Of a DNA stretch of 64,000 nt, positions 57,809-61,536 are shown piece after piece. Position numbers and translations under genes: made by a program. Source of the DNA: Dipodascopsis uninucleata var. uninucleata (taxonomy: Eukaryota; Ascomycota; Lipomycetes; Lipomycetales; Lipomycetaceae); contig JAJLTO010000009.1 in assembly GCA_030568195.1 (NCBI GenBank), forward strand, positions 62,001 through 126,000. The letters are read 5' to 3'. Within the stretch, counting starts at the first letter, position 1, and each line of letters opens with the position of its first letter. Under the pieces are notes generated by a model, which saw only the letters and a program-made list of their open reading frames with translations, ran no database searches and had not been told where the DNA came from.

Positions 57809-58091
57809 TATAGTCTGTATGTGGGTGTAACTGTGGTAACATTATCTATAACAATATTGTTGTTCAGAGCTGAAAAGTTCTATTATAATCAATGACTAAC
57901 TTCAGATCGAGATATTTCTAGTTAGAAAATTTAACAGGCAGTCATAACTTACTTGAGGGATTTCGGTGCTGGCTATTCATTCTTAATAGTTCTTTGATTC
58001 GCGATTCAAATATTTGATTTCACGTCTTTTACGTTAAAAGTGCTAATCGAGAAGCTACGGCTACTTTTGCATTACTATTCCTAATCATCAA

Positions 58092-59174
58092 ATGACTGCT
58101 GTTGTCTCCTCTTATTTGCCTTTTCCTGGATCTAATACAACAAATACTACTACCGGTCCTTCGAACGCGTCATCTTCAGTTTCTGGAAGAATTCAGAGAG
58201 AATATACGTACGCTGACGAGAACGTACAATCTGTTGCTCAGCAGTCTTCTAACCAATCAAGCAATCAGCAGCAACAGTCTTCCAAACATCTGCAACGACA
58301 GCATCAGCGACAGTACCAGCAACAACAAGAACAACAACAGCGACAATTAAACCATCTCCAATTCTCAGTTTCAGCACCAATGCATATGATGCCACAAGTA
58401 TCAATGTCGCAAATGCCACAAATATCACAGATTCCCCAGGTAAATCCTGCTACACAGTTACCCCCACAGCTCCAGCAATTGCCTTATTACCATTTGTTTT
58501 CTCAACAATCAGCGAATCCATCAGGTGGATACGCCACAGCATCCTCTACAGCATCTCTAGCTCCTAACCCACCACCATACTATTACTTGCAGAGACCTCC
58601 AACACCAGCATCTCCTCCTCCTTATACCAAAATGCGCAGATTTAGGCTTACTCATGCTCAAACACGTTTTCTACTTCAAGAATTTCAGAAGCAGCCACAT
58701 CCTGACGCGTCTTTACGTGAGCGCTTAGCTGCTGAGATTCCTGGATTATCTGCACGTCAAGTTCAGGTGTGGTTCCAGAACAGAAGGGCAAAGCTTAAGC
58801 GTCTCTCAAATTCTTCAGGCTCTAAATTGCCTCTCACACCATTGACAGCATCTAATACCAATACCAATAATGGATCAGCATCAAGTGCTAATAGCTCATC
58901 GTCTGTTTCATCAACATCATCGTCGTCTTCTGCATCATCGATTCCAACTTCTACATTACCTCCTCTTTCAATGCCTCCGCCTGCTAATATGGCCTCTTTT
59001 TTACGGGCTGCAGAAAATTCTAATATCATGAGCATGCATTCACTTACGTCTCACTCACAAAACGGTCATTCTCAGATTTCAGCGCAGAATCATGGACAGA
59101 CACACGGTCATCCTCATTCGCATTCCCTTTCTCATAATTCCACATCGGCATTTGATACCACTAATGTCAGATAG
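58092..59174 (+). CDS. Homeodomain transcription factor (Yox1/Phx1-like class)
   Basis: A 360-residue single-exon protein. The homeodomain is at about 179-240: MRRFRLTHAQTRFLLQEF for helix 1, and recognition helix VQVWFQNRRAKLKR. It is a typical 60-residue homeodomain, not the TALE mating-type kind. The N-terminal half is Gln/Ser/Pro-rich, with several QQQ runs; the C-terminal part is Ser/Thr-rich and ends with a His/Gly/Ser-rich tail. Such low-complexity flanks are usual in fungal regulators. Assignment to the Yox1 or Phx1 groups is inference from the domain class and the upstream MCB cluster. Upstream lies an unusually long AT-rich leader. Confidence 0.85.
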   Translation: MTAVVSSYLPFPGSNTTNTTTGPSNASSSVSGRIQREYTYADENVQSVAQQSSNQSSNQQQQSSKHLQRQHQRQYQQQQEQQQRQLNHLQFSVSAPMHMMPQVSMSQMPQISQIPQVNPATQLPPQLQQLPYYHLFSQQSANPSGGYATASSTASLAPNPPPYYYLQRPPTPASPPPYTKMRRFRLTHAQTRFLLQEFQKQPHPDASLRERLAAEIPGLSARQVQVWFQNRRAKLKRLSNSSGSKLPLTPLTASNTNTNNGSASSANSSSSVSSTSSSSSASSIPTSTLPPLSMPPPANMASFLRAAENSNIMSMHSLTSHSQNGHSQISAQNHGQTHGHPHSHSLSHNSTSAFDTTNVR

Positions 59175-59822: not shown

Positions 59823-61536
59823 ATGCGTGAAATTATCTCAATTCAGTGCGGTCAGGCAGGTAAGTTCGAATAGTTTGAAGAATAGGAGAAATGATGGTTC
59901 TGGGAGACTCGCTAGATGCAGTATTATGAGCATTATGCAGCAAAGGTCAATAGTACTAATTTTTACGTGCTCTCTTTGATATAGGGTACGTTCACCGAAT
60001 ATGTCAATCAAGATAGTATAATGCTGTCTTGAAGGGTGTTGATGGTCGAAACCAACTAGATCGATAGGAATCATGATGATATACTAATGTTTGACTTTTT
60101 TTTGTAGTAACCAAATTGCATCTGCTTTCTGGGAGACCATTGTAGCTGAACATGGACTTGACAACACCGGACATCTCATCAAGAAAGACAGCGTCCGCTT
60201 TGATAAAATAGACGTCTTTTTTCGAGAGGCATACAATGGAAAGTATGTACCTCGATCAGTTGCAGTAGATCTGGAGCCTGCAACGTTAGATAATATTCGT
60301 TCAGGACCACAGGGGGAGTTGTTCCGACCTGATTCATTTGTCTTCGCACACTCAGGTGCTGGCAACAACTGGGCCAAAGGATTCTATACCGAAGGTGCTG
60401 AACTAATCGAACCAATACTTGATGTCATTCGTCGTGAAGCTGAAGGAACTGAGTCTTTACAGGGATTTCAGCTACTTCACTCGTTAGGTGGTGGTACTGG
60501 ATCGGGTCTTGGTACTTTGTTACTCTCGAAGATTAAGGAAGAGTATCCTGACAGAATGATGGCTACTTACTCAGTTTTGCCATCAGCAAAAGTTTCTGAT
60601 ACGATAACTGAGCCGTATAATGCAGTTTTATCTTATCATCAACTAGTTGAATTTGCTGATGAGACCTTTACATTGGATAATGAAGCACTATATGACATCT
60701 CAATGAAGACTCTTAGGATCAAACAGCCTGACTACAATGACTTGAACAAGCTCATTTCTCTTGTAATTTCAGGCGTTACAACATGTTTGCGATTTCCCGG
60801 TCAATTGAATTCCGATCTCAGAAAACTGGCTGTTAATATGGTTCCCTTCCCTCGTCTTCACTTCTTCATGGTTGGTTTTGCTCCTCTCTTCGCTGCTGGC
60901 ACTCGTGATTTCCACAGCTTAAGTATTGCAGACTTGACGTCACAATTGTTTTCACCCTCTAATATGATGGCTGCTGCAAACCCTCTTCACGGTCGTTACT
61001 TGACTGCCTCCACTATTTTCCGTGGAAAGTCAATTTCAACCAAAGAGGTCGAGGATTCAGTCTACAACATGAGAACTAAGAGTTCTGCCTACTTCGTTGA
61101 GTGGATTCCAAATAACATTCAGACCTCTCTATGCGATATTTCGACTGCTAATCTGAAGACTGCCGCTACCTTTATTGGCAATTCCACTGCTGTTCAAGAG
61201 CTTTTCCTGCGATCTTCTGCCCAATTCTCTGCTATGTTCCGTCGAAAGGCATTCTTGCATTGGTATACTGCCGAGGGTATGGACGAAATTGAATTCACTG
61301 AGGCCGAATCAAACTTGAACGATCTCATAGCTGAGTGTAAGTTTCATCTATTTACTTTTTGTCGTGTTTTACTGTTTATTCCCAACTTCTTGTGGCGAAG
61401 TTTTCCACGTGTCTGCTGACGCTGAGTTTCTTATTTAGACCAACAATACCAGGAAGCTGGTGTAGACGATGATGTGTACGCTGATGAGAATGGTGAGTAT
61501 ATTGAAGGGGATGCTGAGGGTGAAATCCTTGAGTAA
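59823..61536 (+). CDS. TUB2: Beta-tubulin, divergent, with a one-nucleotide exon (four exons)
   Basis: Exons 59823-59859, 59985 (one base), 60108-61336 and 61439-61536 encode 454 residues. Beta-tubulin marks are the MREI start (mRNA autoregulation motif), GTP-binding loop [12 protein letters not shown] at 140-151, [79 protein letters not shown], and an acidic tail. It polymerises with alpha-tubulin into microtubules. Several usually fixed residues differ: Cys12 is Ala, Cys127 and Cys129 are Thr and Ser, Gln94 is His. At benzimidazole-relevant sites it has Ala165, Tyr167, Glu198 and Phe200. Introns are 125, 122 and 102 nt. Gly13 is split over exons 1, 2 and 3. Confidence 0.93.
59985..59985 (+). 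other. Putative single-nucleotide exon (G) of beta-tubulin
   Basis: Upstream is a complete intron (GTAAGT at 59860, TACTAAT at 59954, ATAG ending at 59984). Downstream is another (GTACGT at 59986, TACTAAT near 60082, GTAG ending at 60107). Only the single G between them keeps frame and yields the invariant G-N-Q-I of all beta-tubulins. Joining exon 1 directly to exon 3 shifts the frame; the next in-phase donor would insert about ten residues into the nucleotide-binding loop. Confidence 0.8.

Follow-up and report, generated by a model that had tools for sequence, protein, structure and literature searches.

A probable one-nucleotide exon completes the codon of a conserved glycine in a Dipodascopsis uninucleata beta-tubulin gene

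Which base completes the codon for Gly13 in the beta-tubulin gene of Dipodascopsis uninucleata, a yeast of the Lipomycetaceae? In the window, the whole stretch of 64,000 nucleotides that we analysed, the first coding segment of this gene ends GCA-G and the segment that takes up the conserved frame again starts T-AAC, one base short of the motif QAGNQI. The original prediction supplied that base from a middle exon consisting of a single G at position 59985. Its exon and intron coordinates, and the one-base deficit itself, proved exact on re-checking, and the two signal sets that it described around the G (GTAAGT, TACTAAT and ATAG before it; GTACGT, TACTAAT and GTAG after it) were found with every element unbroken. 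The features are collected in Table 1.

Table 1 Features of the beta-tubulin gene around and beyond the Gly13 codon, in window positions; transcript features are predicted.
Feature	Position	Strand	Remarks
Beta-tubulin gene	59823-61536	+	contig 9 of a 25-contig, 16.2-Mb genome
Exon 1	59823..59859	+	from ATG to first base of codon 13; ends GCA-G
Intron 1, 125 nt	59860..59984	+	donor CAG/GTAAGT, acceptor ATAG
Intron 1 branch site TACTAAT	59954..59960	+	branch A 25 nt before intron end
One-nucleotide exon G	59985..59985	+	middle base of Gly13 codon G-G-T
Intron 2, 122 nt	59986..60107	+	donor AGG/GTACGT, acceptor TTTTTTTTGTAG (ends GTAG)
Intron 2 branch site TACTAAT	60082..60088	+	branch A 20 nt before intron end
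Exon 3	60108..61336	+	starts with last base of codon 13: T AAC CAA ATT
Intron 3, GT-AG, near 3' end	61337..61438	+	
Exon 4	61439..61536	+	runs to stop codon TAA

With G 59985 included, the coding sequence is 1365 nt long, giving 454 codons and a stop, and the QAGNQI motif is intact; skipping the G shifts the frame and leads to an early stop. The product matches the Pfam families Tubulin (200.8 bits) and Tubulin_C (114.2 bits), both above cut-off, and is identified as a beta-tubulin by these two domains together with its beta-type N terminus. In the single alignment shown for 6tis_B, the best-matching solved beta-tubulin, there is no gap across QAGNQI. The G at 59985 is thus required for the conserved reading frame, is flanked by AG and GT, and has a complete intron on either side. 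We consider it very probable, from the arrangement of the sequence, that the beta-tubulin gene of D. uninucleata contains a one-letter exon completing the conserved glycine codon. Just upstream of the tubulin gene and on the same strand lies an open frame (58047-59174, +) whose translation has stretches rich in Q and in S and matches the Pfam homeodomain (PF00046, 63.1 bits).

Other ways of splicing the interval were enumerated. Single introns with GT-AG, GC-AG or AT-AC ends were considered wherever the donor lay between 59826 and 59959 and the acceptor no further than 60199; none of those enumerated yielded QAGNQI, and every option with an open frame added or deleted residues. For middle exons, the donor at 59860 and the acceptor ending at 60107 were kept fixed, and an exon was accepted if it measured at most 60 nt, was flanked by AG and GT, contained no stop and had the length modulo three that the frame requires. 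Seven such exons were found, two of them a single G (59985 and 60035). Of the readings enumerated, only the exon at 59985 leaves QAGNQI uninterrupted while both introns have a GTANGT donor and carry TACTAAT 20-25 nt ahead of their AG, which supports the original claim of a Gly13 codon drawn from three exons. The enumeration also brought up two alternatives that the original prediction had not considered, the G at 60035 and a single intron with its donor at 59864, which inserts one Asn.

The first of these uses a second AG-G-GT, at 60033-60037 inside intron 2 (AAG/G/GTGTTG), and it too restores the frame, giving a protein identical to that of the 59985 reading. Its donor would be GTGTTG. Between 59860 and 60107 CTRAY occurs nowhere but in the two TACTAAT, and the closest one upstream of this exon, at 59954, lies 75 nt before the intron ends, with none in between. 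As this choice would also leave the strong site at 59985 unused, we regard an exon at 60035 as highly improbable.

The rarity of the pattern was assessed by 20000 rounds of dinucleotide shuffling of the interval 59860-60107 (248 nt). A bare AGGGT appeared in 3792 shuffles, AGGGTRNGY in 225 and CTRAY-N5-35-AGGGTRNGY in 21, and the strict form TACTAAY-N5-35-AGGGTANGT, a motif defined only after the site had been seen, in 1 of 20000. Across both strands of the 16.2-Mb genome the strict form occurs at 2 places (reversed control 1), and with A, C or T as the middle base at 8 places together (reversed control 6). The second genomic place, C14:288824-288857, falls outside the listed open frames (at least 70 aa; L030); it was considered as another one-nucleotide exon and taken as chance. 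The strict pattern is rare, yet it shows no genome-wide excess and does not constitute a genome-wide class.

Public proteins bear on whether the missing base might be an error. Among 120 proteins listed after 8000 candidates had been scored, the highest identity (99 percent over the whole query) was found for P0010, a 455-aa protein of Dipodascopsis uninucleata, which differs from the window protein by one inserted residue and otherwise at 2 of 454 positions (F44L, S338N); the contigs that carry the two genes also differ in length (621142 versus 620541). The two come from the same species or very close ones, and from different strains or assemblies. P0010 reads GQAG-N-NQI, a sequence reproduced if exon 1 is continued through GTAA and an intron beginning at 59864 is joined to 60108, giving GGT-AAT-AAC. 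If a base had been lost from the assembly beside 59859 or 60108, the interval would really hold just one ordinary intron, in phase 1 and about 248 nt long, and one extra G before 60108 would indeed create an ordinary acceptor, TTGTAG/GTAACC. P0010, however, has the same deficit at codon 13, which argues against sequencing error, and a second signal set inside the interval would then be a chance event of the order seen in the shuffles (1 of 20000). We therefore judge an assembly or sequencing error very unlikely.

P0010 also represents the second alternative from the enumeration, a single intron at 59864-60107 whose donor, GTTCGA, lies four bases inside GTAAGT. This reading keeps an open frame and reproduces the public protein's N terminus, with the extra Asn (GQAGNNQI), and relatives carry one-residue inserts at the same place. 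Donor use in the genome was compared by counting how often each hexamer has a TACTAAY 25-55 nt downstream; its counts at 200-230 nt and a reversed-pattern control served as yardsticks. GTAAGT gave 261 pairs at 25-55 nt and 67 at 200-230 nt (reversed control at 25-55 nt, 74); GTACGT gave 54 and 28 (reversed control 47); and GTTCGA gave 37 and 28 (reversed control 59). GTAAGT is enriched by both yardsticks, GTACGT by the far-spacing one only and GTTCGA by neither. The donor of the single intron is therefore near chance and overlaps one that is strongly enriched. GTACGT is itself barely above chance under the reversed control (54 versus 47), which counts against the one-nucleotide exon; GUACGU is described as a functional donor in Lipomyces starkeyi (PMC7138796).

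A noisy intron-signal profile anchored on TACTAAY-like sites (264 kb, 305 anchors) gave observed and expected counts of 23 and 7.3 for GTAAGT, 5 and 3.4 for GTACGT, and 6 and 5.4 for GTTCGA. Density-based expectations from the same 264-kb sample (44, 21 and 33, respectively) are probably too low, because as many as 67 GTAAGT pairs are counted even at 200-230 nt, and the far-spacing counts of the same hexamer were therefore preferred. GTAAGT-TACTAAY pairs spaced as in intron 1 (75-105 nt apart) numbered 83, against 81 in the reversed control, and those at 200-230 nt 67 against 66. Introns this long are thus not a common class in this genome, whether the interval is read as two introns or as one.

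The inserts in relatives allow a further comparison. In the first two homology searches (122 proteins listed), the seven-residue motif was ungapped in 109, carried an insert in 4 and was lacking in 9, whose N termini are missing or altered. A third search added P0123 from Nadsonia fulvescens, with an insert, and P0124, which is normal. The inserted residues are N in D. uninucleata, I in Nadsonia, YISSS in Limtongia smithiae, T in Lipomyces tetrasporus (representative read from a cluster of 17 sequences) and M in Geotrichum candidum TBB2 (representative read from a cluster of 22). In a tree of 21 chosen rows, four of them ordinary beta-tubulins set against the rest, all insert-bearing rows fall within one clade of 17 (5 with insert, 11 normal, 1 partial). 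Of these five, three belong to the Lipomycetaceae half, which has 7 rows, and two to the remaining half, which has 10. Lipomyces arxii, L. japonicus, Kockiozyma, D. tothii and Trichomonascus are among those that read normally.

Four of the five insert rows fit a four-base slip of the donor, since N, T, I and M can all be encoded as A-N-N: taking GTAN/GT from GTAAGT, GTACGT, GTATGT and GTATGT, and adding one base of the downstream exon before AAC, would give N, T, I and M, respectively. Read as such slips, each of these four genes may be one base short, its donor being in phase 1 and its acceptor in phase 2. Further points speak against a genuine single intron at 59864-60107: the inserted residue varies by lineage in a manner that resembles donors and not a protein loop, and an insert is absent from 110 of the 124 listed proteins (present in 5, motif missing in 9). 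Such an intron would also leave the internal TACTAAT-ATAG-G-GTACGT without purpose. We consider this reading, the public model, unlikely. It predicts the junction GCAGGTAATAACC, with the extra Asn; the one-nucleotide exon predicts GCAGGTAACC, without AAT, and does not predict the further form GCAGTAACC.

The one-base deficit may accordingly be old, if the protein inserts of relatives reflect the same missing base. The broader proposal is that the QAG-type (TUB2-like) beta-tubulins of Saccharomycotina inherited a one-nucleotide exon at codon 13 from their common ancestor, that this exon pre-dates the split between Lipomycetaceae and Nadsonia/Geotrichum, and that it has been mis-annotated in several yeasts through the GTAN/GT slip, with false N, T, I and M residues that include the one in UniProt Geotrichum candidum TBB2; we give this an even chance. 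The 11 normal rows among the 17 of the clade may lack the introns, through loss, or be arranged differently; alternatively, the deficit may be confined to some members. The YISSS of Limtongia could reflect read-through of AG/G-GTAYAT or other causes and is not counted as support. The start of P0072, MLTAFFCRNQV, could be read, with guessed codons, as CTAAC ... TGYAG/R-AAC, again with one base before AAC. If the insert pattern holds, public tubulin sequences contain false residues beside the conserved GQ[AC]GNQ, and the exon has persisted through a deep split among yeasts.

Further observations concern individual sequences. In P0064 (UniProt TBB2_GEOCN) the Met inserted at residue 14, in GQAGMNQV, may be a similar annotation artefact. 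For D. uninucleata Phaff 50-6, annotation with the JGI pipeline followed transcriptome sequencing (PMC11024372); if P0010 is the JGI model of this strain, RNA did not lead the pipeline to the one-base exon, which would count against it. The other beta-tubulin of the present genome (L003, on contig C2 and like P0095) has codons 5-16 in one continuous stretch, hence no intron at its codon 13. A further tubulin-family gene, L001 (G000:C9:367968-371588), lies on the same contig as the window and shows about 33% identity to beta-tubulin over codons 3-423; an intron may split its Gly codon before QCGNQI.

How might a single base be retained between two introns? We propose that the Gly13 codon, GGT, is assembled from three exons with G 59985 as the middle one, so that the mature mRNA would join as GCAG-G-TAACC. 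Each intron, having its own donor, TACTAAT and AG, would be recognised across the intron, and removal would be sequential, in either order. Both introns are complete, so neither requires prior removal of its neighbour. Were intron 1 removed first, the donor of intron 2 would stay in the context AGG/GTACGT, formed by the CAG end of exon 1 and the G; were intron 2 removed first, ATAG/GTAACC would remain, an ordinary phase-1 acceptor. Excision of 59860-60107 as one intron would shift the frame and lead to an early stop. Simultaneous removal on either side of one base would be unlikely, by the argument made for APC11 (PMC4674806; on splicing mechanism, see also PMC12403724). The original prediction also suggested a likeness to recursive splicing or a near-stwintron. 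Neither comparison fits: a recursive splice site, with its zero-length exon, would be AG-GT, whereas here it is AG-G-GT and the G is needed for the frame; and neither intron interrupts a splice element of its neighbour. Stwintrons proper, where an internal intron disrupts a donor, branch element or acceptor of the external one, are known from Lipomyces (PMC7138796); in the present gene all six elements (donors, branch sites and acceptors) are unbroken and a base is retained in the predicted mRNA, and we hold this explanation to be extremely improbable.

As to origin, the authors of the Fusarium CYP621A study (PMC12940212) suggest that a base was lost at an exon edge and a cryptic AGGGT then came into use. 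That scenario fits here too, because one more G before 60108 makes an ordinary acceptor. A duplication relating intron 1 to intron 2 was also considered: their global alignment score of 15.5 was reached by 20 of 1000 shuffles and their local score of 18 by 198 of 1000, in a test whose shuffles preserved six bases at the start and three at the end of intron 2, but not its branch site. The signal is weak and no duplication is claimed.

One-nucleotide exons as such are already known, and the beta-tubulin case adds to them. If it is true, this is the second nuclear fungal gene with a one-nucleotide exon, after Fusarium CYP621A, and its yeast host makes the handling of a one-base exon and the order of intron removal directly testable. 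In the open-licence literature, surveyed mostly by listing, we found no report of a one-nucleotide exon in a tubulin, in Saccharomycotina or in any yeast. The original prediction was right to name APC11 as a precedent, and the Fusarium P450 gene, plant VPS55 and fungal mitochondrial group II introns have to be added to it. In Yarrowia lipolytica, 47 genes have a first coding exon that consists of the A of ATG (PMC2911113); we would expect those exons also to carry 5' untranslated sequence.

The closest parallel is CYP621A, a nuclear P450 gene of Fusarium whose one-nucleotide exon was described with RNA reads in 2026 (PMC12940212). There, as here, the arrangement is AG-G-GT, its central G provides the second base of a conserved Gly codon, and the boundaries are phase 1 upstream and phase 2 downstream; nearly all public models of CYP621A are wrong at the exon. 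The gene family differs, and the RNA confirmation is on the Fusarium side. The plant exons of APC11 (PMC4674806, PMC8831610) and VPS55 (PMC8831610), both conserved across land plants, likewise place a lone base between two complete introns and were missing from annotations. They belong to another kingdom, the Arabidopsis APC11 base is A, and they are supported by RNA-seq and RT-PCR and, for APC11, by constructs (PMC4674806, PMC8831610). The fungal mitochondrial cases share a neighbouring intron pair with one exon base between, but concern group II introns of a mitochondrial rRNA gene, with no spliceosome and no codon (PMC12308204). The complex introns [D4,5], [D6,7] and [D7,8] of a reticulon-like gene in Lipomyces (PMC7138796) come from the same yeast family and also put two introns at one position, with stepwise removal and a GUACGU donor in L. 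starkeyi; those introns are nested, whereas the two in beta-tubulin are consecutive, with one base retained between them.
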